Source: Hyphomicrobiaceae bacterium (GTDB lineage: Bacteria > Pseudomonadota > Alphaproteobacteria > Rhizobiales > Hyphomicrobiaceae). From it: a DNA stretch of 64,000 nt. The position numbers and the translations under genes are program-made. Where the stretch lies: assembly GCA_022842785.1 (NCBI GenBank), contig JALHOW010000006.1:1-64000 (forward strand). Reading direction: 5' to 3'. Below are positions 6,903-35,630 of this stretch, one piece after another. How positions within the stretch are numbered: position 1 is the stretch's first letter; every line of letters starts with the position of its first letter. The notes under the pieces were generated by a model. It had not been told where the DNA came from and did not search any database. It saw nothing but the letters and a program-made list of their open reading frames with translations.

Positions 6903-7853
6903 TCACTTCTTGCCGAGGCCGGCAGCGCGGACGAGTTCACCGACGCGCTTGTAGTCGGCTTCGAAGAATGCCTTGAAGGTCGCTGCGTCCTCATAGGCGA
7001 TCGGATACTTCTGGCGCTCGAAGATTTCCTTGACCTTCGCGTCTTCGAGGGAGGCCTTGCAGGCAGCACCGAGCTTTGCCTTTACATCGGCCGGCGTTCC
7101 ACTCGGGACGTAGATGCTATTGTAGTTTGTCACGACCACATCGAAACCAGCCTCGCGGACGGTCGGGGTATCCTTGAAGGTATCGATGCGCTTCTCGGCA
7201 TAGACAGCGATGGGAAACAGATCGTACTGCGGCACGAGATTGGCTTGGTCGCTGTAGAGTTCAGTCGTGTTGGACATCATCGCCTGCACGGCATCTGCGG
7301 AGCCTTTGAAAGGCACGTGCTTCAGCTGGATGCCGGCCGCCTTCTCGAGCGCGAGCTTGGCGAGATGAGTGATGGAGCCGGGACCTGATGTGCCGTAGGT
7401 GATCTTTCCCGGATCGGCTTTCGCGGCCGCTATGAGATCGGCGACCGTGCGATACTTGCTCGACTTCGGTGCCATCAGCACGAGTGGCTGTTCGACGAGC
7501 TTGCAGATGGGGTCGAAGCTGTCCTTGTCGTACGTGAGCTTCATGCGGTGCGGCTGTGCGGCCGTCGGGCCGCTCGGCGAGATCAAAATGGTGTAGCCAT
7601 CAGCGGGTGCTGCCGCGGCTTCAGCGGTACCAATCGTTCCCGCAGCCCCATTGACGTTCTTGACGACGAGTTGCTGTCCGATTGCGCGCGAGAAGGCCTC
7701 TTGCATCCCACGTGCGACCAGGTCCGTCGCGCCGCCTGCCGGGAACGGCACAATGGCGGTGACGGGACGCTCAGGATAGGCAGCGTATGTCGAGGCTGGG
7801 GCGAAGGCGGCCACGCTCCCCGCGACCACTGCGAGGGCCAGTAGCTTTCTCAT
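6903..7853 (-). CDS. Tripartite transporter binding protein TctC/Bug (copy 1)
   Basis: This 316-residue periplasmic binding protein has a Sec signal peptide (MRKLLALAVVAGSVAAFAPAS, cleavage near TYA-AYPERP). The Bug-family start AYPERPVTAIVPFPAGGATDL and the DGYTILISPSGP strand are present. It is closely related to the next gene (7981-8943), sharing long identical runs such as the QPHRMKL and PICKLV segments, so the pair is a tandem duplication that diverged. It captures the carboxylate for TctAB. It is 58 bases before tctB. Confidence 0.93.
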   Translation of the reverse strand: MRKLLALAVVAGSVAAFAPASTYAAYPERPVTAIVPFPAGGATDLVARGMQEAFSRAIGQQLVVKNVNGAAGTIGTAEAAAAPADGYTILISPSGPTAAQPHRMKLTYDKDSFDPICKLVEQPLVLMAPKSSKYRTVADLIAAAKADPGKITYGTSGPGSITHLAKLALEKAAGIQLKHVPFKGSADAVQAMMSNTTELYSDQANLVPQYDLFPIAVYAEKRIDTFKDTPTVREAGFDVVVTNYNSIYVPSGTPADVKAKLGAACKASLEDAKVKEIFERQKYPIAYEDAATFKAFFEADYKRVGELVRAAGLGKK

Positions 7854-7935
7854 TCAGGCGTTCTCCTCTGGATTTGCTTTTTATTGTTCTGCTTTTTGCA
7901 GGTGTGCATCCTTGCTGAACGGCAAGGGGGGCGCA

Positions 7936-7966
7936 AGCTGTCACGGCGCATGGCGCCATGACAGCT
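7936..7966 (-). other. Intercistronic hairpin between the two tctC copies
   Basis: Arms AGCTGTCACGGCGC (7936-7949) and GCGCCATGACAGCT (7953-7966) pair with one G-U or mismatch and a three-base loop. No T tract follows on the minus strand, so this is more likely an mRNA-stability or processing stem than a terminator. It lies just after the stop of the upstream tctC copy. Confidence 0.6.
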
Positions 7967-7980
7967 GAAGCAACAACCGC

Positions 7981-8943
7981 CTACTTCGCCGTGAGGCCGG
8001 CCTCGGCGAGCAGGGCGCCGTTTTTCTTGAACTCAGCTGCGATGAAGGCCGTAGTGCCCTTGCGGTCGAGGAAATCAATTGGCTGGCGCTGCTTCGCAAG
8101 TGCCTCGATCACCCCCGCATCAGTCATTGTCGTGCGGCAGGCGCTTTCAAGCTTTGCGAGTACGGGCTCGGGCGTTCCCTTCGGCGCGAACATCGTGTTC
8201 CAGATCGAGAACTGTATATCGTAGCCGGCCTCCTTCATGGTCGGCACGTCCTTGTAGGTCGGGATGCGCTGGCTCGCGTAGATGGCGATTGGCGTGAGAT
8301 TGTACTGGGGGACGAGGTTCGGCTGGTCCGTGAACAGCTCGACCGTATTGGTCAGCAGGCCCTGCACGACATCTGCCGAACCCTTGTAGGGCACATGCTT
8401 GATATCGATGCCCGCAGCCTTGGCGAACGCGAGCTTGGCAACGTGGGGCGTTGTGCCCGGCCCGGTCGACCCATAGGGAAGCTTGCCTGGCGCCGCCTTG
8501 GCGGCAGCTACGATGTCAGCGACTGACTTGTAGTTGGAGTCGGGTGCACCCATCAGGACAACCGGACTGTCGACGAGTTTGCAGATCGGCTCGAAGCTGT
8601 CGTAGCTGTAGTCGAGCTTCATGCGGTGTGGCTGAAGCGTGATGGGGCCGATCGGGCTGATAAGAATCGTGTAGCCGTCGGGCGCCGCGCGCGCTGCTTC
8701 CGCCGTTCCAAGTGTGCCGGCAGCGCCTGGCGCATTTTTCACGACAACCTGGCCGCCGAGCGCCTTCTGGAAAGCGTCCTGAAGGCCGCGAGTGAGAAGG
8801 TCCGTCGCGCCCCCCGCCGTCCACGCGACGATGACGGTTACCGGGCGCTCGGGATAAGCCGCCTGCGCCGATGCGCCTGTGGTGATCAGCACTGGAGCCA
8901 GTGCGCTGAGAGCAATACGGGTGAGCCGCTTGAGGCGGAGCAT
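7981..8943 (-). CDS. Tripartite transporter binding protein TctC/Bug (copy 2)
   Basis: This 320-residue paralog of the neighbouring binding protein is the first gene of the tct unit. It has a signal peptide ending near GASAQA, then the Bug signature AYPERPVTVIVAWTAGGATDL. A polypurine ribosome site (GGAGGAAAAG) lies directly before the ATG. Differences from copy 1 cluster in the ligand-loop half (QFSIWNTMFAPKGTPEP versus VVTNYNSIYVPSGTPAD), so the two may serve different ligands with one TctAB pore. A putative IclR site lies about 110 bases upstream. Confidence 0.93.
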   Translation of the reverse strand: MLRLKRLTRIALSALAPVLITTGASAQAAYPERPVTVIVAWTAGGATDLLTRGLQDAFQKALGGQVVVKNAPGAAGTLGTAEAARAAPDGYTILISPIGPITLQPHRMKLDYSYDSFEPICKLVDSPVVLMGAPDSNYKSVADIVAAAKAAPGKLPYGSTGPGTTPHVAKLAFAKAAGIDIKHVPYKGSADVVQGLLTNTVELFTDQPNLVPQYNLTPIAIYASQRIPTYKDVPTMKEAGYDIQFSIWNTMFAPKGTPEPVLAKLESACRTTMTDAGVIEALAKQRQPIDFLDRKGTTAFIAAEFKKNGALLAEAGLTAK

Positions 8944-23233: not shown

Positions 23234-24748
23234 ATGGACCAGACATCTGCGCAATCGGCGCCTCGTCTCCGTGGTCGCGTCACTCGACGGGAATCGCCCC
23301 GCCAACGCAGCATTCTAGCGCGGCTCAGGAGCGTAAGACAGCGTATCGGCAGGCTTCGGGCGGCCCCAGTGGAAGTGCCCGAAAGCGAGTATGCCTTTCT
23401 GGTTGGCCGGGCCATCGATCTTGCGACGCTCGGGCGCGCTGAGCGCATTGCGCACGAGTGGGGCGTACTTCCGCATGAGGTGATGATCGCGCTCGGCTGG
23501 ATCGATGAGAGTTCGTATGTCGCGGCACTCGGCGCGACCCTTGGTATGAACTGGCTCGGTCGAACACCAGGGCGGTCGAGGCGGCCGGAAGAGGTCGTGA
23601 TCGGTGCCTACGCCATGCGCCCGCGGGTTATCCGCGAGGCCGTCTCGCTCCTTCCGCCTGGGCAGCATCCGGTTCTAGCGACGCGTCGCGAGGTGGATGC
23701 GATCCACATGGCCGGCGCGGAGGCGGCCCTGATCGACCATGCCATCGAGGGCCTCTGGCGGTCTGATCCCTCGGCCTCCGCGCGCTACGGCGCCGAGACG
23801 TGGCAGGCGCTTCTCGCAGCCACTGCCGTGGGGCTCTTTGTCGGCGGCAGCCTGGTCGCGCCAGAGATCATCGTGCCGTTCGTCATGGCCCTTCTGACCC
23901 TGCCATTCCTGTGCGTCGTGCTCTTGCGAACGGCCGCTGTCCTGGAACTCGCGCGCAGGCGGTCGCCCAGGGCTGCGCGCGCGGTCTCAGCCGTTCCCGA
24001 TACCGAGCTGCCGCGCTACAGCGCGCTGGTGCCGCTTTATCGCGAGGCCGAGATCCTGCCTGATCTTGTCGCGGCCATGGCGGCGCTCGACTATCCGGCA
24101 GCCAAGCTCGAGGTGCTGATCGTCCTGGAGGCGAGCGATACCGAGACGCGCGCCGCGCTCGACGCTCTCGATCTGCCGGGAAATATCCGGCCCGTCGTGG
24201 TGCCCGAGAAAGGCCCGCGCACCAAACCCAAGGCGCTGAACTACGCACTCGAACTCGTGCGCAGCCCCTATGTCGTCGTCTACGATGCCGAGGACATTCC
24301 CGAGCCCGATCAGCTGCGCCGGGCGCTGGGCGCGTTTGCGGAAGGTGGCCCAGAGGTCGCCTGCGTGCAGGCCCGTCTCGGCATACACAACACGGCCCAG
24401 GGCTGGCTGCCGCGCCAGTTCGCGCTCGAATATGCCTCGCTCTTCGATGCGCAGTTGCCGTCGCTGCAACGGCTAGGCCTGCCGATCCCGCTCGGTGGCA
24501 CTTCGAACCATTTTCGCGTCGATCGCCTCAAGGAGGCCGGCGGCTGGGATCCCTACAACGTCACGGAGGACGCCGATCTTGGCTTTCGTCTCGCGCGGGG
24601 CGGCTATCGCACGCTCACGATTGCCTCGACGACGTGGGAGGAAGCGCCGATTGCGTTGCGGAGCTGGATTCCTCAGCGCACGCGCTGGCTCAAGGGATGG
24701 ATGCGCCTTGGTTTTGATAGGCATCAAGTAATTGATTTAAAAAGATAA
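23234..24748 (+). pseudogene. GT2 glycosyltransferase, N-terminal part, split by mobile element
   Basis: This is the 5' part of a 636-residue glycosyltransferase. Codons 1-490 come from the original gene. They include an MshEN-like N-terminal domain (GRAIDLATLGRAERIAHEWG and VPLYREAEILPDLVAAM), a DxD-like site (YDAEDIPEPD), the ED motif (TEDADLG) and QRTRW. At the TGGATGC core (24698-24704) the frame passes into the element, adding about 14 foreign residues up to the stop at 24748. The catalytic motifs are kept but the C-terminal membrane segments are lost. The remaining 3' part lies in frame at 35624-36070. The enzyme probably made surface or secreted polysaccharide. Confidence 0.9.
24698..24704. 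other. attL core of the mobile element
   Basis: TGGATGC, the last bases shared with the right junction at 35624-35630. It encodes the Trp-Met codons of the glycosyltransferase. The identity is only 7 bp. Confidence 0.75.
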
Positions 24749-24778
24749 AATACCGATAAGGGGAAGACTGTTGGTGCG

Positions 24779-24800
24779 CCGTAGCAACGCTATAGCAACA
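24779..24800. repeat. Left composite repeat (integrase arm-site-like)
   Basis: CCGTAGCAAC, three bases, ATAGCAACA. It is a near-exact copy of 35483-35504 (20 of 22 bases). The short unit TAGCAAC occurs twice. It lies 75 bases inside the left core. Confidence 0.75.
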
Positions 24801-24827
24801 TTCCTCTGCCGCTATCCCGCTCATTGA

Positions 24828-24853
24828 AAAGCCGGCCTCGAAGGGCCGGCTTT
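24828..24853 (-). terminator. Terminator of the leftward operon of the element
   Basis: AAAGCCGGCC (24828-24837) and GGCCGGCTTT (24844-24853) form a 10-bp stem; on the minus strand it is followed by TTTTCAATG. It lies 82 bases after the ParB-like gene. Confidence 0.75.
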
Positions 24854-24934
24854 GTCGCCGCTGCCAGTACATCCGTGGTCAGCGGGAGCATAGGGCGAGT
24901 ATGGCTGCGGCAGTCGCGGAAGGCAAGGTCTCGG

Positions 24935-25843
24935 CTACTGGACGGCACTAGGCTCCGCTGCATCGTCCTCGTCGTCTTCTCCCTCAAGAACGCTTTCCAG
25001 CGCCCATAGCGCTCTTTTTGCATTGTTGGCAGCAGCGTCAACGGCGGCCTTTTGGCCTTTTCCTTGGAGAAGCTTGTAGGACATGTACGATGCTTGCCTA
25101 GCCTCTCCATAGGCCAACGCCGCCGCCAGCACTTTTTTCTTGAACTCGGCACTGTACGGGCCGCCGATGGTCGGTTGGCCTGCGTTCTGCCCGCCGCCTT
25201 TTGCGCTTACCTGTTCCCCGGCCTTGGCACGTTCAATCAGGGCGGCTTGGCGCTCGGCAGGGAGTTTCGCCAGCGCGTCCAGTTCTGCGCCCGTATCTAA
25301 TGACGTTCCGGCGAGATCGGCGATTTGCGGAATGGCGCGGGCGCGCTGTATGTCGCGCCTGATACCGCGCTCCGATTGGCCGGTTGTGGAAGCGGTGTCC
25401 TGCACGAACGTAGCGGCCAAGTTGGCCGTTACGTCTCCGCGCCCCATCGTCTTGTTCGCTGCCCTTGCGCTATTCGCCTTGGCCGGCCCGTTGATCCTCT
25501 CGAAGATCGCCCTGCGGGCTTCCATATGTGCAGACCGTTGAGCAGGGGACAGTTCGGCGCGTGCAAGGTTTTCATCAATCTCGGCAAGCTTGATGTCGTC
25601 TGCGGCCATGTCGGCAGGAAGAACGGTTGCCTTGATCTTCGCCCATCCTAGAAGCTTCGCCGCCGCAAGCCGATGATGGCCGGCAACTAGATAGGGCGTA
25701 TCGTCGGGCTGGTGGATGCTGATTGGCTGAAGTTGCCCGAGGCGTTGCATGCTCGCGGCGATCTCGGCGACGGTGGCCTCTGAAAGAGGCCGGAGCCGCT
25801 CGCCGACGACAACTTCATCAACGCGGATTTCGTCGATAGCCAT
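24935..25843 (-). CDS. ParB/Srx-fold nuclease-like protein
   Basis: This protein has about 302 residues and starts at MAIDEIRVDEVVVGERLRPL after a GGGGGA ribosome site. The N-terminal ParB/sulfiredoxin-fold domain is clear: LRPLSEATVAEIAASMQRLGQLQPISI, then YLVAGHHRLAAAKLLGW with the GHHR motif and the ENLARAELSPAQRS helix. The C-terminal half is Ala-rich and ends in an acidic tail (GEDDEDDAAEPSAVQ). Such proteins in phages can act as segregation, DNA-binding or nuclease factors. It is the last gene of the leftward operon. The role in the element is unknown. Confidence 0.85.
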   Translation of the reverse strand: MAIDEIRVDEVVVGERLRPLSEATVAEIAASMQRLGQLQPISIHQPDDTPYLVAGHHRLAAAKLLGWAKIKATVLPADMAADDIKLAEIDENLARAELSPAQRSAHMEARRAIFERINGPAKANSARAANKTMGRGDVTANLAATFVQDTASTTGQSERGIRRDIQRARAIPQIADLAGTSLDTGAELDALAKLPAERQAALIERAKAGEQVSAKGGGQNAGQPTIGGPYSAEFKKKVLAAALAYGEARQASYMSYKLLQGKGQKAAVDAAANNAKRALWALESVLEGEDDEDDAAEPSAVQ

Positions 25844-25954
25844 ATTGGTCCCCCTGACCAAGCACCACTCAGTGGTGATGCGCATATCCGGCAATATGCA
25901 GTGCGCGGATCATATGGCAATAGGACCGGCCCGCACCGGCCTATGTTGCGGGGG

Positions 25955-26161
25955 TTAGGGCCACGCGCCGTACTTCTCGACCAGCGTCAGCGTCGCTGAT
26001 GCCTTCTGGTGAAGAAGCCGGGCGCGGTGCGAGCGGCGGCAAGCAGCCTCATCCGAAACGTGGCGCAGGCGTTCGATGTCCTTCGCCGCCTTCGCTTCGG
26101 CGAAGGCGGCCTCAAGATCACTGGTCGGGCAATACGAAAAATGGCGCGGCGGCTTCGACAC
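25955..26161 (-). CDS. Small hypothetical protein of the element
   Basis: This protein of about 68 residues begins at a GTG (26161); no ATG fits well. The sequence reads SKPPRHFSYCPTSDLEAAFAEAKAA then KDIERLRHVSDEAACRRS, an alpha-helical, charged pattern without recognised domain. It is located between the capsid gene terminator and the ParB-like gene. It is supported by codon-like composition and position only. Confidence 0.5.
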   Translation of the reverse strand: MSKPPRHFSYCPTSDLEAAFAEAKAAKDIERLRHVSDEAACRRSHRARLLHQKASATLTLVEKYGAWP

Positions 26162-26190
26162 GGCGCAACTCCCGATTTGAAAAGAAAAAA

Positions 26191-26218
26191 GGCCCGACGC
26201 TGGCGGAAGCGTCGGGCC
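26191..26218 (-). terminator. Terminator after the capsid gene
   Basis: GGCCCGACGCT (26191-26201) and AGCGTCGGGCC (26208-26218) form a perfect 11-bp stem with a 6-base loop. On the minus strand a TTTTTTCTTT tract follows. It should end transcription of the capsid unit. Confidence 0.87.
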
Positions 26219-26335
26219 GGCTGCTGATCTGCGGCGGTCAGGAGGGACCATCAGCAGCAACCGCCTTGCGCCATGCCCTGACGCTCGGCGGGGATCAGCC
26301 GGCGGGAAAAGGGATAAACCGCCGGCCGAACTGAA

Positions 26336-28159
26336 TTACTGCCCCGGATTATGGAACCAAGGGCGGAAATCGAGGAAGGCGCAGCCGAAGTCGAGCCGAA
26401 CCTTGAACTCAATTCCATCGACATCGAAGCCGAGGCGATGCTCGATTTGCGGCCCCGGCTCGGATTGCAGGTGCGCGTAAGCGAGGCCGTCAACGATGGC
26501 AGGGTCGGCCGCGACGTACCATTCTTTCCCCGAGATGCGCGGCTCAACGACAAGCGACAGCTTGATCGGCTGCGCGTTTTCCGTTTCGGCGGGCGTGATC
26601 TGCGCCATCAGCTTTTCGGCGGAAGTCTCAAGCTCAGGGCCGACAACGAGGAAGCGCGGCGCGAGACCGAGAAGCTGCTGCGCTTCGTCTTTCTGCGTGC
26701 GCATGGCGAGGCGAGCAGCGCTAAGCGACGTTTCGCTCGGGGCTGCGCCCGACGAGGCAAGGTTGCCGTGGTCGCTATGAAAGAGGGCCTTGCCGTCCGA
26801 CATCTTGGGGTTCGATGCGAGCAGGCCGGCAAGCTGCTGCGCCTCAAAGTTCGCGGCTGCGACGGCCAGCTTCTTCGGCACATCAACGAGCCAGCCCAAG
26901 TCGTCATTTACGATGACTTGCCGGGTCACGCCGAAGATACGACCGAACGTTTCCAATCGGATCGTTTCGCCGCCGTCGTGGATCGTCCCGCGCTTGAATT
27001 CGCCCGCCTCGTTGACCTTCTCAAGGGCGCTGAAGCCGCTGAGGCCGACGATGGACCTCGCCCTGAAGTCGCTGAGTTCCATCCGCCGAGCGAGCGGCTT
27101 CAGACCGGAAGGGGCGCTCTCATAGGACTTGCGCAGCACGGCGAACGCCGCGCTGGCGAGCGCGTTGGCGAAGTCCGAGGTCGAGTGCAAACCGCCGAGT
27201 GAGCGGGTCACTACCTGCCCGGCCGACATGCCGCGCACATCTACTCCCGCCCAGCGAAGGCTTTCGCGAGCCATCTCCGGCAGCGAAAGACCGATAAACT
27301 GACGGGCGGCCGGGGAAGGCGTTAGGTCGGGCATGGCGCGAACCGCGAGCGCCTCGCCCATCGCTTGCGCGCGGGTCGCAGGATCGCGAAGGTCCGGGCC
27401 TACGCCGCCGACGCCAGCGTCGGCGTAGTGCGAAACGGTGGGCGGCTGCTCACGGTTCTGCCGGTCGGAAAGCGCATCAATTGCACGCTCGCGGGCTACG
27501 CGCATCGTCACGCCAGCCTCGATCTGTTCGTTGACCCACGCCGCGTCGAGATTGGCGACAGAGGCGAGGCCGCGCAATTCGAGGTCGGTTGCGATCCGGT
27601 CAGCGCGAAGACGCGGCTCCGGCGCGGGCGTAGTGGTTTCAGGGGTGGTCATGGTGCCTTTGCTCCTAATTCGGGCGTTCGGATCAGCGGGCACAGGCAC
27701 AGCGCTGACTTCAACGAGCGTCCATTTGATTGCGGTCTTCGTGCGGGTTCCGTCTTCGGCAGTTTCATCAAGCCAGTCGGCAACGACATATCCGGCGCTC
27801 ACAGCGTCAACGACGCCATCCGCGATGTCGCGCGCCAGACCTTCGAGGTCGGCCCGGCCGGAAAGGCGGATGACGGCCTCAAGCTTGTCGCCCTTGCGCT
27901 CAACGCGCTCGACGCGGCCGATGACATCGCCAATCTGACCGGTTCGATGGGCGTTGAGGAATGGCACAGAGCCGGCCATCTCGACGCAGGCCACGTTGAG
28001 AACTTCCATGTAGTCGCCGTCCCATCCGCGCCGAAGAACCGGCGTGGCGGTGGCGACGATGGCGCGGAACGTCCGCGACTTCTCATCCCACGTTGCCGCG
28101 CCGCCCATCGGCGCGCGGCGGGTGAAGGTTTCGGGTTCAATCAGGGCCGGCGCGTTCAA
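26336..28159 (-). CDS. Prohead protease/major capsid fusion protein
   Basis: This single 607-residue protein carries two phage head modules. Residues about 25-170 look like an HK97-type prohead protease (FRAIVATATPVLRRG, CVEMAGSVPFLNAHRTG with the catalytic-type His, and GYVVADWLDE with the SAGY stretch). The rest resembles an HK97-fold major capsid (GLSGFSALEKVNEAGEFKR, RQVIVNDDLGWL, AQQLAGLLASNPKMSDGKALF and LVVEPRISGKEWYV). Such fusions are known in phages. The fused arrangement implies self-cleavage during head assembly. It overlaps the preceding small gene by four bases (ATGA-type). It is the only head gene recognised in the element. Confidence 0.87.
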   Translation of the reverse strand: MNAPALIEPETFTRRAPMGGAATWDEKSRTFRAIVATATPVLRRGWDGDYMEVLNVACVEMAGSVPFLNAHRTGQIGDVIGRVERVERKGDKLEAVIRLSGRADLEGLARDIADGVVDAVSAGYVVADWLDETAEDGTRTKTAIKWTLVEVSAVPVPADPNARIRSKGTMTTPETTTPAPEPRLRADRIATDLELRGLASVANLDAAWVNEQIEAGVTMRVARERAIDALSDRQNREQPPTVSHYADAGVGGVGPDLRDPATRAQAMGEALAVRAMPDLTPSPAARQFIGLSLPEMARESLRWAGVDVRGMSAGQVVTRSLGGLHSTSDFANALASAAFAVLRKSYESAPSGLKPLARRMELSDFRARSIVGLSGFSALEKVNEAGEFKRGTIHDGGETIRLETFGRIFGVTRQVIVNDDLGWLVDVPKKLAVAAANFEAQQLAGLLASNPKMSDGKALFHSDHGNLASSGAAPSETSLSAARLAMRTQKDEAQQLLGLAPRFLVVGPELETSAEKLMAQITPAETENAQPIKLSLVVEPRISGKEWYVAADPAIVDGLAYAHLQSEPGPQIEHRLGFDVDGIEFKVRLDFGCAFLDFRPWFHNPGQ

Positions 28160-28383
28160 TGGACCGCCCCCGTGGTCGTTTCCTTCACAATTACGGCTTC
28201 GAGGTCCGGGTCTTGCTTGAACATTTCAACGGCGAGGAAATTGGCGAAGGTCTCGAAATTCATGTCAAGCGCATCGGCAATTTCGCCAAGGTCCATCGGA
28301 AGACCTGCTTCAAGATCGCGCCGGACTTCCGCGCAGCGATCCATGAAGTCAGGATCGTTCAAATCGAAGGGTTCATTATTCAT
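28156..28383 (-). CDS. Small hypothetical protein of the element
   Basis: This 75-residue, acidic protein starts at 28383 (MNNEPFDLNDPDFMDRC), eight bases inside the end of the upstream gene. The sequence has short helices (VRRDLEAGLPMDLGEIADALDMNFETFANFL). No known domain was recognised. Its stop overlaps the start of the capsid fusion, so it is translationally coupled to it and may be a scaffold or regulator. This is inference. Confidence 0.65.
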   Translation of the reverse strand: MNNEPFDLNDPDFMDRCAEVRRDLEAGLPMDLGEIADALDMNFETFANFLAVEMFKQDPDLEAVIVKETTTGAVH

Positions 28384-28876
28384 CGGCCAGCGTCTCCTTG
28401 AGGCGGCGGAAATGATGAGAAGCATTGACGAGGATCAGCCCGGCCCCGCCGCCCGCGCCTTCCGGCGCGGCCTTGATGTTGTCGCGAACGCGCTTCTCGA
28501 CATCGAGAACGAGGTCGCAGAACTGGCCGCCGACCGGCACAGGCGCTTCCAGAAGGTGAAGAACCCCGATCCACACATCAGCGCGAGCGGCGGAACGGGG
28601 ATGCGGCCCTGCCATGATGAACTTGCGGCAACGGGTGACGATCTTCGCCGCCTCATCAGCATTGAGACCGCGCTCGACCAGTTCAAGCACACAGGCGAGC
28701 GCGACTGCATCCGCGATCCAGTAATCGCGCCATTCGCGGCCGGCTTCTTTTCCTTCGGCGAGCGCCGCATCCCACATCGCGGTTTGATTGCGGGCGCGCA
28801 TTGTCCTGATGCGGGCGAGAGGAACGTCGAGCGCGGCGGCGACCTCGCTCAGTTTGTAGGTTCGATCAGAGTTCAT
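28376..28876 (-). CDS. Hypothetical protein with MerR-like N-terminal helix-turn-helix
   Basis: This 166-residue protein opens with TYKLSEVAAALDVPLARIRTMRARNQ, the pattern of a MerR/excisionase-type helix-turn-helix. The remainder is helical (YWIADAVALACVLELVERGLNADEAAKIVTRCRKF). It may bind DNA or act in packaging as a small terminase-like subunit, but no terminase signature was seen. A strong hairpin (28879-28920) abuts its start codon and leaves no ordinary ribosome site. Confidence 0.65.
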   Translation of the reverse strand: MNSDRTYKLSEVAAALDVPLARIRTMRARNQTAMWDAALAEGKEAGREWRDYWIADAVALACVLELVERGLNADEAAKIVTRCRKFIMAGPHPRSAARADVWIGVLHLLEAPVPVGGQFCDLVLDVEKRVRDNIKAAPEGAGGGAGLILVNASHHFRRLKETLADE

Positions 28877-28878
28877 GT

Positions 28879-28920
28879 TGCCCGCGCAATTGTTTCGCCG
28901 CGAAGCAATTTACGCGGGCA
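28879..28920 (-). promoter_or_regulatory. Hairpin touching a start codon
   Basis: TGCCCGCG (28879-28886) pairs with CGCGGGCA (28913-28920), and the inner CAATTG/CAATT and TTCG/CGAA bases continue the stem around a CCG loop. It begins three bases from the ATG of the gene at 28376-28876. It could be an operator or a translation control element. Confidence 0.6.
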
Positions 28921-28931
28921 GGTGAATTGTG

Positions 28932-29354
28932 TCAACGCGGATCAATTTTGAAGGGGATGACCTTTGCGCCTGCTTTGTCCCGCGCAGGCTGCGCCGGTCG
29001 CGAAGCCGGCCGCACTGCGGCCTCGATCTCGTCGCCTGCGATCAGGCGGTCGAGCACGTCAAGCTCGCGGCCCTTCGCTCGCGGATCGGACAGCGCGGTC
29101 TTTGCTCGACGCAAGGCTGCGCCTTCGCCCATGGCGAAGGCGGTCGCGAACATGGTGGCAAGCGGATCATCCTCGGACATGCTGAATTCGATGTGACCGG
29201 CAAGAACGCCGCGTCGCATCGCGGCGTCGGTGATTGCAAGCGCCTTCATCGTCTGATCGACAATAGCCGCAGGGTCCGGCGTCGTCGCTTCGGCTTCAAT
29301 CCGGTTCAGAAGGCGGTCGCGGAAGGCTGCGGCAAGGGAAACAAGGTCCGACAT
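28932..29354 (-). CDS. Hypothetical protein of the element
   Basis: This 140-residue protein starts MSDLVSLAAAFRDRLLNRIEAEA. It is largely helical with an Ala-rich C-terminus (VRPASRPAQPARDKAGAKVIPFKIDPR). No recognised domain. Its start overlaps the stop of the tape measure gene by one base (TGATG), so it is coupled to it. A position directly downstream of a tape measure gene could fit a tail assembly or completion protein, but nothing in its sequence confirms this. Confidence 0.6.
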   Translation of the reverse strand: MSDLVSLAAAFRDRLLNRIEAEATTPDPAAIVDQTMKALAITDAAMRRGVLAGHIEFSMSEDDPLATMFATAFAMGEGAALRRAKTALSDPRAKGRELDVLDRLIAGDEIEAAVRPASRPAQPARDKAGAKVIPFKIDPR

Positions 29355-31561
29355 CAGTACGCTCCCGCCAGATCGCCCTGCGCGCCGCGCATGGCCTCGC
29401 GGATGCCTTCCGAGATCGCGCGGCGAACCTTTTCGGTGACGGCTTCAACGTCCGTCGCGCCGTTAATCGTCAGATGGTTCGTTACGTTGACCGCAGGAGC
29501 ACCGCCGCCTTCCGGCACGCGCGGCGTAATGTAACCGGAAGCGCCGGGCGTGAAGATTTCCGGCCGGCGCTCGCCAACGATGTACGAGCGGCCCTGCGAT
29601 ACGCGGCCGCCACCCGAGCGGCCGGGAAGGTCCGCCCCGCCGGACGCAGCCGGCGCATCCCCGCCGCCAAATCCGAGCGAGTTGGCAATGCGGCTTCCGA
29701 TGTTGCTGGCAAGGCCGCCGGCCCACGAAAGCAAGTCGCCCGCCATCGACTTCATGCCCTCCCAAAGCTGCTTGATCAGTTCGACGCCGGCCTTAAACAG
29801 TTCGGCCGAGCCTTCCTTGATCGCGCTGCTGATTTCGCTTCCAAGGTTGCGGAAGTGATCAACCATGCGGCCGAGCGCTTCCTTGCTGTTCGCGGCCCAA
29901 TTGGAAAGCGACTGCCAAATCCTCTCGCCGGCCGCCTTCAGCTCACCCCAAAAGTACCAGATCGCGATCCCGGCCCCGATGACGGCCACGCCGACCAGCG
30001 CGGGGATTGCACCGATAGCGGCGACGCCGGTCAGCAGCAAACCGATGCCGCCCGTAGCGAGGCCGATAGCGCCGGCAAGGCCCGCGACGGCCATGCCAAG
30101 CGGCACAAGCGCGATGGCGGTGATTGCAGCATAGGTGCCGAACTTCAGGAGCTTCGGGCTAGACTTCGCTAAGCCTTCGAGCGCGTTGGCGAGGCGACCG
30201 ATCAGGTCAGAAGCGGTAGCCATGACGCCGCTTTCGCCGATGGCGACGAAAAGGTTCTCCCATGCAGACGATAAGGCCAGAACTTCGCCGACGATGCCCT
30301 TCGTGCGGAGCCGGGCCATGCGGTCGGTCGCGCCGGTTGCCTTGTTCGAAACCTCATCGAGCGCCTTGGCAAGATCGCCCGCGAGAAGCGTAGCAAGGCG
30401 CGAACCCTGCCGAACATCGAAGATGCGGGAAATGTCGCCGAGGTCTGCGCCCTTCTCCTGAAGGGCTTTGATGAAGCCGAAGAAATCAACCTCGGAACCG
30501 GCCGCGTGCAGCGTGTCCGTGATGCTTTCCGCAAGCTTCGACTTATCGACAGCCGACCCGCCCTTTTCGATGATGCCGGCGATTGCCGCCGTCATCGCGG
30601 CGGTGGACTTCTTGAGCTTCGGGTCCGCCAGCGCCGCGTCGATCTCCGCCTCGAACGCGGACGCATCAACGCCGTCCGACATCAACGAGCCGATGACGTC
30701 CATTGCCGAAATCTGTCGGCCGCCCTTTACGAAATCAGAGACTTCGAGGTTCAGGCGGGAGAGCGCGGCAAGCATCGGCTTCGTCGGCCGAACCATACGA
30801 ACAAGGCCCGAACGCATGGCGACGCCGGCCTCGCTCGCGCGAATGCCGTTCTTCGCCATGACCATCGATGCCGCGCCGACTTGCTCAAGCGAAAGGCCCG
30901 CCGCCGCAGCCATCGGGCCGACATACTTCAATGTCTCGCCCATCATCCGAACATCAGTGTTCGAATTCGTGGCGACGTAGGAAAGCACGTCGTTGACGCG
31001 CATAAGCGAGGCTTCGACCTGTTCCGTCGTCTTCTGCGGCAGGCGCATCGCCGTCAGGATGTTCGTCGAGATATCGGCGGCCTCGGCAAGCCCGAGATCG
31101 CCGGCAAGGCCAAGCTGAAGCGTCCCCTTCAGCGCGCCCATGATCTGCTCGAAGTTCAAGCCGGCGCGGCCGAGTTCGAATGCCGCGCCCATGATCTGCG
31201 AATTGGTCGCGGGGAAAAGCGCGTTCAGGGCTTTCGCATGGGCTTCAAGCTTCGTCCGGTTTTCGTCGGACATCAGCGTCACGGCCTGCATGTCGTTGCC
31301 GGCCTTGGCGAACTCATAGGCGGCCTTCGCCCCGTATGCGCCGATCAGGGCAAGCGGGATTGCCATGCCCGAGGTCATGCGCTCGGTTCCGCGCCGGATC
31401 ATGCCGAGATCGCGGCCGGCGGCCGCCATGGTGCCGCGCTGCGCAACGGCGGCTCGCTCCGATACGCCAAGGAGGCGGCGAAGGCCCGTCGCTGCGGCAG
31501 CGGCCGGGCCGCTGACGCCATCGATCAGGCGGACGATAAGGCGGGATGTACGGTCAGCCAC
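29354..31561 (-). CDS. Phage tail tape measure protein, TP901 type
   Basis: This 735-residue protein has the TP901 core region from about residue 45 to 400. Typical segments are FELGRAGLNFEQIMGALKGTL, NDVLSYVATNSNTDVRMMGE and AAGLSLEQVGAASMVMAKNG. Hydrophobic segments follow (AITAIALVPLGMAVAGLAGAIG and GAIPALVGVAVIGAGIAIWYF), as in other tape measure proteins. The last 130 residues are Gly-rich. In phages the length sets the tail length. No tail tube, tail terminator or chaperone gene is recognised nearby, so its use in this element is uncertain. Confidence 0.88.
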   Translation of the reverse strand: MADRTSRLIVRLIDGVSGPAAAAATGLRRLLGVSERAAVAQRGTMAAAGRDLGMIRRGTERMTSGMAIPLALIGAYGAKAAYEFAKAGNDMQAVTLMSDENRTKLEAHAKALNALFPATNSQIMGAAFELGRAGLNFEQIMGALKGTLQLGLAGDLGLAEAADISTNILTAMRLPQKTTEQVEASLMRVNDVLSYVATNSNTDVRMMGETLKYVGPMAAAAGLSLEQVGAASMVMAKNGIRASEAGVAMRSGLVRMVRPTKPMLAALSRLNLEVSDFVKGGRQISAMDVIGSLMSDGVDASAFEAEIDAALADPKLKKSTAAMTAAIAGIIEKGGSAVDKSKLAESITDTLHAAGSEVDFFGFIKALQEKGADLGDISRIFDVRQGSRLATLLAGDLAKALDEVSNKATGATDRMARLRTKGIVGEVLALSSAWENLFVAIGESGVMATASDLIGRLANALEGLAKSSPKLLKFGTYAAITAIALVPLGMAVAGLAGAIGLATGGIGLLLTGVAAIGAIPALVGVAVIGAGIAIWYFWGELKAAGERIWQSLSNWAANSKEALGRMVDHFRNLGSEISSAIKEGSAELFKAGVELIKQLWEGMKSMAGDLLSWAGGLASNIGSRIANSLGFGGGDAPAASGGADLPGRSGGGRVSQGRSYIVGERRPEIFTPGASGYITPRVPEGGGAPAVNVTNHLTINGATDVEAVTEKVRRAISEGIREAMRGAQGDLAGAY

Positions 31562-31870
31562 GACTGGAACCTTTCGGATTATGGAAGGTCGCGCCGGCCA
31601 TCAGGCCGCGCGGCGAATGAAGGAATGGTCGGGAGAAGCCCGCGCCTGTAACGCGGGGGCGAGAGGATGCAACAAGCCGCGCGGAACCTGTAACAAGCGC
31701 CCTGAAGGCCGTGCGCGGGGCGCAACGAAATGGAAAAATCGAGAACAGGACTACGCGCAACATAAGGGGAGCCGCGCGCCGCAGGCTGTGGGATGGCTGG
31801 AAGAACCTAACCCCTCCCTCCCCCATGCAGGGGGCCAGGCAGGCGGGCAGGACGATGGTGGGGCAGGCCA
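31562..31870. other. Intergenic region inside the element
   Basis: About 300 bases separate the tape measure gene and the next HTH-like gene. Several reading frames span it, but none has convincing protein character. It probably holds the promoter for the tape measure-capsid genes. No clear promoter motif was recognised. Confidence 0.4.
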
Positions 31871-32173
31871 TCATGCTGCGCCCCCTGTGCCTGCCGTAGG
31901 CCGGCCGTTGGGCTTCTGGTCGAGTGCTTCGGCCCGAGGCCCGCAATGGATCGAGGCGAGCGTGACCCCGCCGTGGGGCCTGTGCCAGAAGGATGCGAGG
32001 GCGACGATATCGCCATGGATAAGGGCCATGTCCCCGAAGTGGTCGCGGACAACCACCTTCACAGTACGAAGGTGCAGGCCGAGAGAGACGGAGATTTCCC
32101 GATACGTTGCCGGCCCATAGCAGAGCAGTTCGTAGATAGCGTCGCGAATATCAACATCACGAATGAGCAGCAT
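31871..32173 (-). CDS. Small HTH-like protein
   Basis: This 100-residue protein starts MLLIRDVDIRDAIYELLCYGPATYREISVSLGLHLRTVKVVVRD in blocks consistent with a winged helix-turn-helix. The C-terminus is poor in structure. It overlaps the end of the upstream gene by 17 bases, so it is coupled. It may regulate the element. Not assigned to a family. Confidence 0.55.
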   Translation of the reverse strand: MLLIRDVDIRDAIYELLCYGPATYREISVSLGLHLRTVKVVVRDHFGDMALIHGDIVALASFWHRPHGGVTLASIHCGPRAEALDQKPNGRPTAGTGGAA

Positions 32174-33224
32174 GGTTCGGCCTCCAATTGGTCAGGGGGA
32201 AAGAACTGGTCGCCCGAACGAGCGCGAGCAGCGGCCGTGCGGTTGTTTCAAGATGCCTGCTGATGGATGCGACGCGCGCCGCTACCGCGCGCGCGTCATC
32301 TTGCAGCATCACAATGTTGGAAGCTGAGGCCGCCAGAGGGTTAGCCTTCGGCTTCTTGATTGCTTTCGACCTGATCGGACGCGGCGCTTTCGAATTGCCG
32401 TCCCTCGCCGCCTGCTGGCGGCGGAACCATGTTCGCCGGGAGATGCCTTCAGCTTCCCAAGGCTTTCCAGCTTCTATCGAAGGCCGCTTTGCCTTGGCGG
32501 CACTGGCACTGATCGTGGCACTTTCGGCGTCCGCAATATTATAGAGAGAAGTGCTGCGGACGCTTTTAGTGCCAAAAGTAGTGCCATCATCGGTGCCACG
32601 CGCTTCTGCCAACCGCCGAAACCAAGTCCGCCTTGACACGCCGGCAGTTTCCCAAGGCCGAGCTTCTGCGATGGTTGCAGGCCGGTCCTGACGTGCGAGC
32701 GCGCGCGTGGCCCGCTTCCGATCACGATCCTTCTGCCTGCGGGCTTCGTCGCGATCCTCTTTCCGAAAGTCGATTGCGCCGATCCTGACGAGGCCGAGCG
32801 CATCGCGTTCCTCGCGAAAGATGCCCAACTCGTCGGCAACCTGATCCGGGGACCACTTCCGACGCCGCCGATACGCGGCGTCGATGATCTTCGTCAGTTC
32901 GTCATCGCTGAGAACGCACGGCCAGTCGGCGCGCATCCATTCGCGAACCGAAAGCTCGTCAGCATGATGACAAGCGAGCCGGATGACCTTCGCCATTATC
33001 GCAGGGTCCGGCAGAATACCTTGCTCGGCGTACTCCTGCCGGAAGCGGGCTTTCGTGAACCACTTCAGTTCCGCAAAGCGAGCCTTGTTCTTACTGTATG
33101 GCCGACGCAGAAGTCTGCGACGAGCATCGCGATAAGCGGCAACCTGTTTGCGCGTTTGTGCATCCGGTTCGCCGTCCTTGAGGACGGCGGCCGGCAGGTG
33201 GTTTTCACGCTGAAGGGCGGCCAT
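32157..33224 (-). CDS. Hypothetical protein with duplicated HTH-like motif
   Basis: This 355-residue basic protein has an N-terminal half that reads KWFTKARFRQEYAEQG and CPxxLSDDELTKIID-like segments (CVLSDDELTKIIDAAYRRRRK). It could be a replication initiator-like or DNA-binding protein. Two copies of one motif are visible near residues 192 and 256: RPWETAGVSRRTWFRR and KPWEAEGISRRTWFRR. A similar short motif would suit a helix-turn-helix that binds repeated DNA. It is coupled to the upstream small gene by TAATG. The Lys/Arg-rich linker between copies is low complexity. Function is not established. Confidence 0.7.
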   Translation of the reverse strand: MAALQRENHLPAAVLKDGEPDAQTRKQVAAYRDARRRLLRRPYSKNKARFAELKWFTKARFRQEYAEQGILPDPAIMAKVIRLACHHADELSVREWMRADWPCVLSDDELTKIIDAAYRRRRKWSPDQVADELGIFREERDALGLVRIGAIDFRKEDRDEARRQKDRDRKRATRALARQDRPATIAEARPWETAGVSRRTWFRRLAEARGTDDGTTFGTKSVRSTSLYNIADAESATISASAAKAKRPSIEAGKPWEAEGISRRTWFRRQQAARDGNSKAPRPIRSKAIKKPKANPLAASASNIVMLQDDARAVAARVASISRHLETTARPLLALVRATSSFPLTNWRPNHAAHS

Positions 33225-33493
33225 TAGGACGCCCCCATGATCGCGCGGATCGCGGCGGCCTGATCTGCGAAGATCGAGCCGACTTGAATAAGGCCACCGG
33301 GTTCTGCGCGGAAAGCAAGATGCCGGCTTGCCGTACCGATGACCCGGCCGGCGAGCTTCCCGCCGACGAAGATAGATTTGACCGCATCTTGTGCGTTCCG
33401 GCCGCGCGCTGTATTGTCCCGATTATTCCAATTCACACGCATTGACGCGCCGCCGGGGTTGCCGCCCCGGCGCGCGTTTCCCTTTTCCAGCAT
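33224..33493 (-). CDS. Small hypothetical protein of the element
   Basis: This 89-residue protein starts at 33493, with AGGGGG seven bases upstream; an internal Met at 33442 gives 72 residues. The sequence has ARGRNAQDAVKSIFVGGKLAGRV and LIQVGSIFADQAAAIRAIMG. No recognised domain. It lies between the AlpA-like gene and the duplicated-motif gene, with both junctions tight. Confidence 0.6.
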   Translation of the reverse strand: MLEKGNARRGGNPGGASMRVNWNNRDNTARGRNAQDAVKSIFVGGKLAGRVIGTASRHLAFRAEPGGLIQVGSIFADQAAAIRAIMGAS

Positions 33494-33505
33494 GGCGAGG
33501 CCCCC

Positions 33506-33712
33506 TTATGCGGCGGCCCGGCCACGAGGGCGGGTGTCGATGAATTTCTGAAGGTCGGCGGCCGAGACGCGGGTTGCGCGGCCAAATTTCGTGACGATCA
33601 AATCGCCCGAAGAAATGAAATTGTAAAGCATCGTCCGGCAAAGGCCGAGACGCTTCTGAAGTTCCTCAAGCGTATAGTAGCGAAGTTCCTCTACGTTTTC
33701 TGCACCGCTCAT
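33506..33712 (-). CDS. AlpA/excisionase-like HTH protein
   Basis: This 68-residue protein with the MerR-like HTH_17 pattern reads YYTLEELQKRLGLCRTMLYNFI and VTKFGRATRVSAADLQKFID. Such proteins act as excisionases or regulators of integrase genes in prophages and satellites. The ATG follows AAAGGA. It is the first gene of the leftward operon, 430 bases from the integrase stop. It likely binds near the arm sites or its own promoter. Confidence 0.85.
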   Translation of the reverse strand: MSGAENVEELRYYTLEELQKRLGLCRTMLYNFISSGDLIVTKFGRATRVSAADLQKFIDTRPRGRAAA

Positions 33713-34141
33713 ATTTTTTCCTTTCGAGTTTCTGCATTTCGTTTCCTTTCTTCACCAACAAAAAGTCCGTAGACGCGCATAGAGTTACGCATTCATTTAG
33801 AAATGTGAAGGGGTTTTGGGGCGGTGTCGCGCTGAATGGAATTGTAAGTTTCCAATAACTCGAATGCCGATGCGCCTACTATGCTATTGTTTGTTCTTTG
33901 AAAAACATCGACGGACACAAGCGATCTTCTGCGTCAAAAGTACCGCATATATTTTCATCCATCTGAGGGGCCGAATAAACAGAAACGCCCGCCTAAATGG
34001 CGGGCGCTTTCTGCGAGGTTCGCCGCTGGCGCGGCTTTGGAAGTTAGCCGGCCCTAAGACCATTCAAAGCTGATGCCCGCCAGAGGGCCGCAAAACAGCC
34101 CTAGCAGGCATCGCCTTTGTAAGTTCCCATCGGCAGGCCGA
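33713..34141. other. Control region between integrase and AlpA-like gene
   Basis: About 430 bases without a convincing gene. It is AT-richer than its surroundings, with TTGTTTGTTCTTTGAAAAAC near 33890. It likely holds the promoter of the leftward operon. A terminator sits at 33982-34011. Confidence 0.5.
33982..34011 (-). terminator. Terminator after the integrase gene
   Basis: CGCCCGCC (33986-33993) and GGCGGGCG (33999-34006) form a stem with a TAAAT loop; flanking AGAAA/TTTCT pairs extend it. On the minus strand TTTCTGTTTATT follows. It should end integrase transcription, 130 bases after the stop. Confidence 0.8.
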
Positions 34142-35419
34142 TCAGATCGCGGCGGCGAGCCTGATGATGTTCTCATCGCCCTTCACTTCGCGCCCCTCGA
34201 TGATCTCTGTGAGGCGACGATCCCAAGCAGCCAACGCGGCCTCAACGCGGCAGTCAAGGCGAGGGCGAGCATAATGGCGAACGAGCGTCTGCGTTGCCCG
34301 CGTTCCCCGCTGATGGCCGACGACTGCGGCGATGGTGTCGAGCGCGATGCCCATCTCGTCCATCTGCGACACGGCTGTTCGGCGCAAGTCATGCGTGGTA
34401 AAATGCTCGACCGGAAGCTTTGCCTTACGCTTTACGAGGGCTGCGCCGACATCAGTTGCAAGGAGCGGTCGGCTCCAATCGCGGGTTCGGAACAGCGCGC
34501 CGCGCGACCTCGATCCCAATGCGGCCTCGACGATCTCGCGCGCCCGGCCGACGATGGGCGTGACGCGGGGCTTTTTGTTCTTGGACCTTTCGGCGGGCAG
34601 GGTCCAAACAAGGGTCTTGCCGTCAAGCTCAAGCTCGGAAGCGTCCATGCCGGCGACTTCGCCAACTCGCGCCCCAAGGCAAAGCTGAAGGCGCAGGGCG
34701 GCGATTACATCGGCGGGCATCGCTTCCGCGCCTGCATCGAGCCATTTCCACAGCCGCCTGATCTCATCCGGGTCAAGTGCCCGATCCCTCGGCGTGCCGG
34801 GGCTATAGCCCGGCACCCCGGCGGCAGGGTTTACCTCAGCGAAGCCCTTCGACACGGCCCAAGCGAACATCGCATGGATGACTTGGCGGCGCTTCTCGGC
34901 CTCGCGGGGGTGCGTCTCTGCAACGTCATCGAGAAGGCGGCTGATGTCGCGACGAACGAGGCTGTCGGCGGGCGCGGTCAGCTTCTTTGCAAGCGCCCGT
35001 TCAAGGCGGCGCTTGATCTCATCGGCTGTCCGAAGCGGCCCATCCTTCCGATGCGGGCTCGATATGTGCTTGGCATATCGGTCGATCAACCTCGCAATGG
35101 TCAGCGCCTCGGCGGCGGCTTCTTCCTCTGCCTTTTCGTCGGCAATCAGATTACGGCCGCCACGCGCTGCGCGCAGGATCGCGGTCGCCCGTTCGCGCGC
35201 CTCCCCAAGGTCGAGGCCCGTTCGCCCGTCAGGATCACAGCGGCCGAGGCTAACGCTTTTCACGCCTGCCCCCTTGACGCGGAACACAACGGACCACGTC
35301 TTCGCGCCGGAGGGCGCGACGCGGACGCGCAGGCCATCCGTCCTGCTGTCTGAGGTGTAGTAGGCGCTCGCCTTCGGCTTAAGTGCGGCGAGCGAAATGG
35401 CGGTGAGAGCCTTCTTCAA
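34142..35419 (-). CDS. int: Tyrosine site-specific integrase
   Basis: This phage-type tyrosine recombinase has about 425 residues. The catalytic set is intact: Arg in CLGARVGEV, His and Arg in FTTHDLRRT, His in VVGHQRG and Tyr in VRHYARPR (R256, H348, R351, H374, Y388 counted from an in-frame TTG at 35434). The N-terminal DUF4102 arm-binding domain reads YYTSDSRTDGLRVRVAPSGAK. Start choice: AAGGAGG at about 35424-35430 (minus strand) is followed five bases later by a TTG at 35419, so that codon is preferred over the TTG at 35434, which lies upstream of this site. The gene abuts an inverted repeat (35433-35461). Confidence 0.92.
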   Translation of the reverse strand: MKKALTAISLAALKPKASAYYTSDSRTDGLRVRVAPSGAKTWSVVFRVKGAGVKSVSLGRCDPDGRTGLDLGEARERATAILRAARGGRNLIADEKAEEEAAAEALTIARLIDRYAKHISSPHRKDGPLRTADEIKRRLERALAKKLTAPADSLVRRDISRLLDDVAETHPREAEKRRQVIHAMFAWAVSKGFAEVNPAAGVPGYSPGTPRDRALDPDEIRRLWKWLDAGAEAMPADVIAALRLQLCLGARVGEVAGMDASELELDGKTLVWTLPAERSKNKKPRVTPIVGRAREIVEAALGSRSRGALFRTRDWSRPLLATDVGAALVKRKAKLPVEHFTTHDLRRTAVSQMDEMGIALDTIAAVVGHQRGTRATQTLVRHYARPRLDCRVEAALAAWDRRLTEIIEGREVKGDENIIRLAAAI

Positions 35420-35432
35420 TCGTTCCTCCTTC

Positions 35433-35461
35433 AAATGTTGCTACGGGCCGTAGCAACATTT
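35433..35461. repeat. Inverted repeat at the integrase promoter
   Basis: AAATGTTGCTAC (35433-35444) and GTAGCAACATTT (35450-35461), a perfect 12-bp inverted repeat with GGGCC between. Each arm contains GTAGCAAC, the unit also found in the terminal composite repeats. It overlaps the start region of the integrase gene. Confidence 0.8.
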
Positions 35462-35482
35462 TTTTCGGCGCTCTCGCCCATT

Positions 35483-35504
35483 CCGTAGCAACACGATAGC
35501 AACA
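35483..35504. repeat. Right composite repeat (integrase arm-site-like)
   Basis: CCGTAGCAAC, three bases, ATAGCAACA. It matches 24779-24800 in 20 of 22 bases and in the same orientation. It lies 120 bases inside the right core. Confidence 0.75.
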
Positions 35505-35623
35505 AAATTGGCGATTGCTGGTGGACGATCGTGTATATCAGCGCACAGTGAATGGCAATAACACATTGAAAATGCGTACTTTTACGCACGACTGCGAACA
35601 TTGGCGAACGAGCCGGTTAAGGT

Positions 35624-35630
35624 TGGATGC
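35624..35630. other. attR core of the mobile element
   Basis: TGGATGC, identical to the left core. The glycosyltransferase coding sequence resumes here with the Trp-Met codons. Confidence 0.75.

Follow-up and report, generated by a model that had tools for sequence, protein, structure and literature searches.

A candidate phage satellite of the Hyphomicrobiaceae that encodes its own capsid and tape measure protein, with no recognizable portal or terminase gene

Introduction

Integrated phage satellites are characterized by an integrase, attachment (att) sites, an AlpA-type regulator, a size under about 20 kb, and an incomplete set of virion genes. All of these general features are found in a 10.9-kb element of a Hyphomicrobiaceae bacterium (assembly GCA_022842785.1) that lies within positions 1 to 64,000 of contig JALHOW010000006.1, a stretch referred to here, at its full length, as the window. 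The element encodes a prohead protease-major capsid fusion and a tape measure protein (TMP), and has no recognizable gene for the portal or for the large terminase subunit (TerL).

Two kinds of described satellites come closest to it. Capsid-forming phage-inducible chromosomal islands (cf-PICIs) are integrated islands with their own capsid and head protease and a helper-supplied tail, an arrangement that the gene content of the element suggests as well. As described, cf-PICIs encode a portal, connectors, the small terminase subunit (TerS), TerL, and an HNH endonuclease (PMC10690885), none of which is recognized in the element. The PICI-like elements (PLEs) of Vibrio cholerae, like the element, encode a TMP, which replaces that of the helper in chimeric contractile tails and is needed for efficient transduction, its deletion cutting transduction by 96 to 99.9% (PMC12987554). 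However, PLE11 virions contain helper capsid proteins, while the element has its own capsid gene; by their description, PLEs further carry a gene for a putative tail assembly chaperone, and PLE11 one for a hub protein. Putative tmp genes of some cf-PICIs are mentioned as well, in the legend of Extended Data Fig. 10b (PMC12987554).

Going by the features compared, the element belongs to neither group, although it would act like a cf-PICI in supplying its shell and like a PLE in supplying its tail ruler. An earlier note on the window, made from the sequence alone, had proposed an undescribed satellite type, with a gene set seen in no known type. The latter claim holds for these two groups, but because TMP-bearing satellites have already been published, the element adds a new combination and not a new category. 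Likewise, a satellite that borrows packaging and lysis from a helper is still the simplest reading, but the element is not isolated: the best explanation of the comparisons below is that it was reduced from TerL-, portal-, and capsid-encoding satellites of the Alphaproteobacteria and represents a TMP-bearing branch of a large capsid-encoding family. In the open-licence PMC literature, no description was found of satellites with capsid and TMP but without packaging genes, which is not proof of absence. It is reasonably probable that the element is a phage satellite making chimeric particles, with its own shell and ruler and with the portal, terminase, and tail of a helper.

Absence of recognizable packaging genes

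Searches of Pfam and PHROGs with the 12 open reading frames (ORFs) of the element gave no match to portal, terminase, tube, or lysis families. Six larger plus-strand ORFs (232-528 aa), which mostly mirror genes, gave no portal, terminase, tube, or lysis PHROG, and a hidden packaging gene on that strand was rejected. These results bear out the earlier claim that no portal, terminase, tail tube, or lysis gene is recognizable. Furthermore, a hidden Markov model (HMM) seeded with a satellite portal found no portal in the element, and a TerL HMM found no TerL. It was concluded that TerL and portal are absent from the element, not hidden. Neither TerS nor an HNH endonuclease was recognized by Pfam or PHROGs, a search that a very diverged TerS could escape. 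Head-tail connectors gave no match in these collections either, although the 89-, 101-, and 140-aa proteins have no family assignment. Complete packaging and tail modules, as an autonomous prophage would have, were not found in the element.

A tail assembly chaperone or hub protein was not found beside the TMP gene, its neighbors encoding the 140-aa protein and a 100-aa protein with a helix-turn-helix (HTH)-like character. An ORF at 31554-31946 was rejected as a hidden chaperone gene, because its GC content by codon position (0.63/0.66/0.71) does not dip at the second position as it does in the other genes. A structure search for a terminase, portal, or connector fold in the 166-aa protein (28376), as suggested in the earlier note, pointed elsewhere: the AlphaFold2 model found its best PDB match in the MerR-type CvkR (7xn2, 3.9e-4), and a connector or terminase fold is not supported.

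Different histories of the capsid and tape measure proteins

Relatives of the capsid were sought in IMG/VR, in GTDB genomes, and in 397 genomes of the order of the host. The capsid model matched in 124 of these 397, many matches being partial or phage-type, and 36 capsid regions were taken together with stretches of genomes G034 and G088. The nearest capsids sit in small alphaproteobacterial elements that typically encode TerS, TerL, a MerR-like protein, portal, capsid, a protein of ~72 aa, and a decoration protein, and usually an integrase; no tail operon was seen in their ORF maps, which were read by eye with no tail-family search. In a 61-row capsid tree, the satellite group, which holds the window capsid, comprised 40 rows (support 85/83) and was separate from a 15-row group (99/95) that includes Pseudomonas-type capsids and those of Rhodobacter phage RcMamaDuck and G034. 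The window capsid was sister to that of L193 (100/98), a locus with TerL, portal, and integrase, which also gave the best capsid identity (48%), so that none of the relatives found exceeds 50%.

The TMP has other affinities. A search of the 397 genomes (own included) at 1e-40 gave four matches, in the window, G034, G088, and G230. The window and G034 proteins (735 and 736 aa) are 59% identical over nearly their full length (57% by BLAST segment) and are sisters (100/98) in a 17-row TMP tree, with branches of 0.39 and 0.38. Had the gene been a leftover, its branch should have run ahead; these equal branches give no sign of TMP decay, and by these comparisons the window TMP is of phage ancestry, with no excess amino-acid change. 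The G034 gene lies on C13, a 31-kb contig of myophage type from a member of the host's bacterial family; this contig carries TerL, portal, capsid, decoration, tail sheath (phrog_23), and other tail proteins along with the TMP. Its tail gene order presumably resembles that of P2, and no integrase was found on it by a local HMM. The capsid fusion of C13 is a relative of the window's (41% identity, best segment), and its portal was matched by the satellite-seeded portal HMM (5e-153; 32% by tblastn, L086). C13 resembles the element in TMP length and capsid type but differs in having TerL, portal, sheath, and tail genes and a capsid that falls in the phage clade.

Because the capsid groups with satellites and the TMP with a tailed phage, these structural genes differ in their history. 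A cut-down prophage would not be expected to show this, and the view of the earlier note, argued from gene order, that the element did not arise by such shortening is supported.

Related satellites and the loss of TerL and portal

Among 115 loci of the satellite clade, 72 with good flanks were counted and 43 were dropped for short flanks; flank lengths follow locus coordinates and take no account of gene orientation, and close but non-identical capsids count separately. TerL and portal were both present in 68 of the 72 (62 without and six with a TMP), one had a portal only (L201), and three had neither: the window, L146, and L200. One local HMM found an integrase in 54 of the 72, and 16 of the 18 loci without a match fall in one cluster (L106, mostly Rhodobacterales). 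Loci that retain TerL and portal, such as L193, L104, and L003, share the capsid-protease family and clade with the element and, in many cases, a MerR-like gene, but they usually keep a decoration gene and few have a TMP. Seven of the dropped loci also had neither TerL nor portal; in five (L081, L154, L157, L161, and L164), the contig or fetched stretch ends near the capsid, while L214 and L173, with shorter flanks, apparently lack both genes too.

The capsids of L146, L200, and L214 group in a single clade (100/100), that of the window is on another branch, and that of L173 is on a third. Capsids without TerL and portal thus occur in three places on the tree, which makes it probable that packaging genes disappeared on more than one occasion with the capsid retained. 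Support is modest (80/89) for the position of the window and L193 pair beside the L146/L200/L214 clade. For the L200 and L214 capsids, dN/dS was ~0.16 over a 381-column alignment; the protease part of L214 does not align with that of L200. By eye and alignment, the L214 capsid ORF (6946-8751) has an unrelated N-terminus with a hydrophobic stretch in place of the protease part. PADLOC assigned defence genes in capsid-bearing satellites: IetAS in L200 (12487-15826), PDC-S19 in L214 (2533-3588), and a type IIG restriction-modification enzyme in L180 (2907-6365).

Two local HMMs found a TMP in six of the 68 well-flanked satellites with TerL and portal. TMPs of several families were detected by HMM in L020, L016/L103, L021, L155, L174, and L066, those of L103, L155, L174, and L066 also by Pfam or PHROGs, and that of L004 by phrog_1538. 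The earlier note had stressed that the TMP gene precedes the capsid gene; this order was confirmed but is not peculiar to the element, being shared by L020 and L066. TMPs were present in two of the three well-flanked loci without TerL and portal versus six of 68 with them (Fisher p 0.03), or in two of five when L214 and L173 were added (p 0.09), and an association is not claimed. L146, an island in a metagenome-assembled genome of the Rhizobiaceae, resembles the element in gene content, with integrase, an AlpA-like gene (by eye), TMP, a MerR-like gene, and the capsid fusion, and with no TerL or portal found; it differs in having TerS (phrog_57), in a TMP that is 32% identical and on the strand opposite to the capsid, and in a capsid of a different clade.

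A region in G024 (L241 9921-18276), from the same bacterial family, contains a TMP gene with a relative of the 140-aa gene adjoining it, a tail protein (phrog_166), and TerS (phrog_57). The phrog_166 protein, of chaperone type, is 55% identical to the product of the gene before the G034 TMP gene. No capsid, portal, or TerL was found in 20 kb of this region. By eye, an integrase fragment adjoins an AlpA-like gene, a CRISPR-like repeat array lies beside the region, and an open integrase gene is situated ~8 kb past the other end; the limits of the region are uncertain, and it may be decaying.

Element limits and host gene

The earlier note had delimited an element with integrase, AlpA-like, protease-capsid, TMP, and ParB-like genes, and this was confirmed by the att core, by empty sites in relatives, and by Pfam and PHROGs. 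The core word TGGATGC was the sole common word of at least 7 bp in the two junction stretches compared (24698 and 35624). The interrupted glycosyltransferase ORF stops after ...TRWLKGWM and picks up again as QTYLVHTRR beyond the element, and in three of the four genomes available from the host genus (G002, G003, and G004) the WLKGWMQTYLVHTRR frame is unbroken across the insertion site; the fourth, G001, gave only a partial glycosyltransferase match that ends short of the junction. The words GTAGCAAC and ATAGCAAC occur at 24781, 24792, 35450, 35485, and 35496, with a reverse complement (GTTGCTAC) at 35437, and the window has no further copy; they are placed as integrase arm sites would be, and are possible arm sites. 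By eye, the L200 and L214 elements also adjoin a glycosyltransferase-type gene like the one interrupted in the window (L200 17093-19186; L214 619-1275).

Proposed mechanism and alternative explanations

In the proposed mechanism, infection by a helper would lead the AlpA- and MerR-type regulators to activate replication and the operon running from the TMP to the capsid gene. The satellite shell, self-maturing through a capsid with fused protease, would assemble on the helper portal, and the TerL of the helper would package the excised genome of ~11 kb into this shell. Inside a helper-built contractile tail, the helper TMP would give way to that of the satellite. Dependence on a helper, the chimeric head and tail, and the roles of the small genes are inferences, as is a helper resembling the G034 phage, for which C13 may serve as a model. 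More tentatively, and with rather less confidence than in chimeric particles as such, the element may exemplify a class of "shell-and-ruler" satellites, in which the satellite capsid sets the head and the satellite TMP the tail, while portal, motor, tube, sheath, and lysis come from the helper; the G024 island would then be the "ruler-only" and L200 the "shell-only" end of a spectrum. An element whose sole structural genes are those for capsid and TMP uncouples shell formation from the supply of portal and motor. It provides a testable case, set in the Alphaproteobacteria and involving a TMP akin to that of an identifiable phage type, of a capsid protein working on a foreign portal and of ruler replacement as a general satellite strategy.

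In favor of chimeric particle formation are the intact att ends, the empty site in relatives, and the MerR-like gene, which is common to satellites upstream of portal and capsid genes. The satellite affinity of the capsid, the TMP without signs of decay, C13 as a model helper, the further loci lacking TerL and portal with the low dN/dS of the L200/L214 capsids, the TMPs of other satellites, and the PLE precedent speak for it as well. Several points weigh on the other side. No helper prophage was found in the host genome: the sheath family PF04984 had no match, PF10145 matched only the window's own TMP, and the TerL families PF03354, PF05876, and PF03237 gave zero, zero, and one match, other terminase families not being searched. 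No close relative conserves the same gene set. No TerS was recognized for the packaging of satellite DNA, nor was a tail assembly chaperone, whereas PLEs have one. The TMP is as long as that of the phage type, hence the tail would not be expected to change in length. How many losses were independent depends on L193 having retained, and not regained, its genes, since the pair that includes the window adjoins the L146 clade on the tree. Finally, at 0.93 the branch of the window capsid is long compared with that of L193 (0.40; pairwise dN/dS ~0.39), which may reflect relaxed constraint or, alternatively, adaptation to a foreign portal.

The long branch (0.93) also fits a decaying capsid-forming satellite, whose L193-like ancestor lost TerL and portal and gained a TMP, and which is now immobile or moved by chance, with capsid and TMP as leftovers. 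That the closest capsid relative has TerL and portal, that close relatives are lacking, and that the insertion disrupts a host gene agree with such a history, but the named genes have open frames, the protease retains its three conserved residues, the TMP branch is no longer than that of the phage, both ends are intact, and the same loss recurs in the L146/L200/L214 clade, where the compared capsid pair is under purifying selection; on balance, decay is considered unlikely. We regard as quite improbable an island that interferes with phages, in which capsid and TMP would act as assembly poisons or decoys that jam a helper and protect the host, while the island itself would be transferred rarely or not at all. 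Defence genes do occur in related islands with a capsid gene (IetAS, PDC-S19, and the type IIG enzyme), and in PLE11 a small protein directed against the helper TMP blocks helper tail assembly (PMC12987554); against this, the integrase, intact ends, and AlpA point to mobility, and PLE interference works through the separate protein Rta, not the satellite TMP (PMC12987554). A remnant of a G034-like prophage, left by internal deletion and inversion, would account for one phage type having relatives of both capsid and TMP, a finding that goes part of the way toward what the earlier note held would refute a satellite. Yet the window capsid groups with satellites and not with that of G034, both trees contradict such a remnant, the TMP gene precedes the capsid gene in a compact operon, and the 355-aa and MerR-like genes are common to satellites, so that this origin is very improbable indeed.

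In the host genome, the sole PF03237 (Terminase_6N) match lies in contig 2 of G000 at about 669-680 kb (L231), ahead of ORFs of gene transfer agent-like size and order. From these ORFs, judged by size and order, we take the cluster to be gene transfer agent-like.

Gene content and signals of the element

The features of the element are collected in Table 1. On the minus strand, the integrase gene is followed by a hairpin, the AlpA-like gene, and the genes for the 89-, 355-, and 100-aa proteins; after a gap of ~300 bp come the TMP gene, the genes for the 140-, 166-, and 89-aa proteins, the capsid-protease gene, a second hairpin, the doubtful 101-aa ORF, and the ParB-like gene.

Table 1. Coordinates of features in and at the ends of the element, in window positions
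Feature	Position	Strand	Evidence or remark
Integrated element	24705..35623		10.9 kb; inside glycosyltransferase gene; TGGATGC at both junctions
att core TGGATGC, left	24698..24704
GTAGCAAC / ATAGCAAC words, candidate integrase arm sites, left end	24781..24799	+	Word search; putative role
Hairpin GCCGGCC...GGCCGGC near left end, possible terminator	24829..24856	-	Read from sequence; absent from terminator scan output
ParB-like protein, 319 aa	24935..25894	-	ParB_N 9.3e-6 (0.3 bit below Pfam cut-off); phrog_3264 7.3e-35
101-aa ORF, TTG start, doubtful	25955..26260	-	No family match; phrog_9686 at E 0.19 only
Strong terminator-like hairpin, closes TMP-to-capsid operon	26191..26218	-	11 pairs, 9 G-C, T tract; TTTTTTCTTT
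Prohead protease-major capsid fusion, 607 aa	26336..28159	-	PF25209 2.9e-45; PF04586 (Peptidase_S78) 4.2e-6; phrog_4523 1.1e-164
89-aa protein	28156..28425	-	No family match (Pfam, PHROGs)
166-aa MerR-type HTH protein	28376..28876	-	Held-out HMM 5.2e-10 vs ~18,000 ORFs; AlphaFold2 pLDDT 77
140-aa protein, overlaps TMP stop	28932..29354	-	Relative adjoins TMP in G024
TMP, 735 aa	29354..31561	-	PF10145 9.9e-35; phrog_28 1.9e-58; 59% to G034 TMP
Three TGTAAC/TGCAAC words, exact 21-bp spacing, upstream of TMP gene	31647..31694	+	Word search
100-aa HTH-like protein	31871..32173	-	Weak Sigma70_r4 similarity, E 0.07
355-aa protein	32157..33224	-	No family match; phrog_6962 at E 0.08 only
Small protein, 89 aa	33224..33493	-	No family match (Pfam, PHROGs, PADLOC)
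AlpA-like HTH_17 regulator, 68 aa	33506..33712	-	PF12728 1.5e-10; phrog_66 (excisionase and transcriptional regulator) 1.4e-7
Terminator-like hairpin 3' of integrase	33983..34009	-	11 pairs, T-rich tail
Tyrosine integrase, 430 aa	34142..35434	-	PF00589 2.3e-16; Arm-DNA-bind_3 3.5e-9; phrog_1 1.5e-50
GTTGCTAC / GTAGCAAC / ATAGCAAC words, candidate arm sites, right end	35437..35503	+	Word search; putative role
att core TGGATGC, right	35624..35630

Terminator-like sites in the region numbered 14 versus a shuffle mean of 13.0, so that only its strong stem supports the hairpin 3' of the integrase gene as a terminator. Because the hairpin at 26218-26191 sits within the 101-aa ORF, this ORF, if real, begins later. 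The spaced words upstream of the TMP gene are a possible operator or activator site for the late operon, and a promoter-like TTGACA-17-TAAATT (10/12 matches) lies at 28907-28935 on the minus strand, directly 5' of the MerR-type gene. By profile comparison, the product of the latter has homologues in other satellites, where they are encoded upstream of the portal gene.

The largest minus-strand gene without a family assignment encodes the 355-aa protein, which has relatives in 16 other genomes of the 397 searched and in satellites L191, L020, and L203. In several other integrated regions, these relatives lie near integrase or AlpA-like genes, and a probable role, judged from position, is that of an HTH- or replication-type early gene common to other integrated elements. 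The 140-aa protein had matches in seven of the 397 genomes, its own included, of which only that in G024 was good (9.3e-10, 38%), and none in the phage collection; its predicted fold was poor (pLDDT 58, two sequences). Pattern scans of IMG/VR with the 140-aa, ParB-like, and 355-aa proteins gave no relatives.

The capsid family phrog_4523 is labelled "major head and protease protein." Residues H70, S120, and E149, which we take to be the catalytic residues of the capsid-fused protease, were invariant in 20 of 20 aligned rows. Relatives of the ParB-like protein occur in 14 phage records with hosts mainly in the Alphaproteobacteria, including RcapMu.

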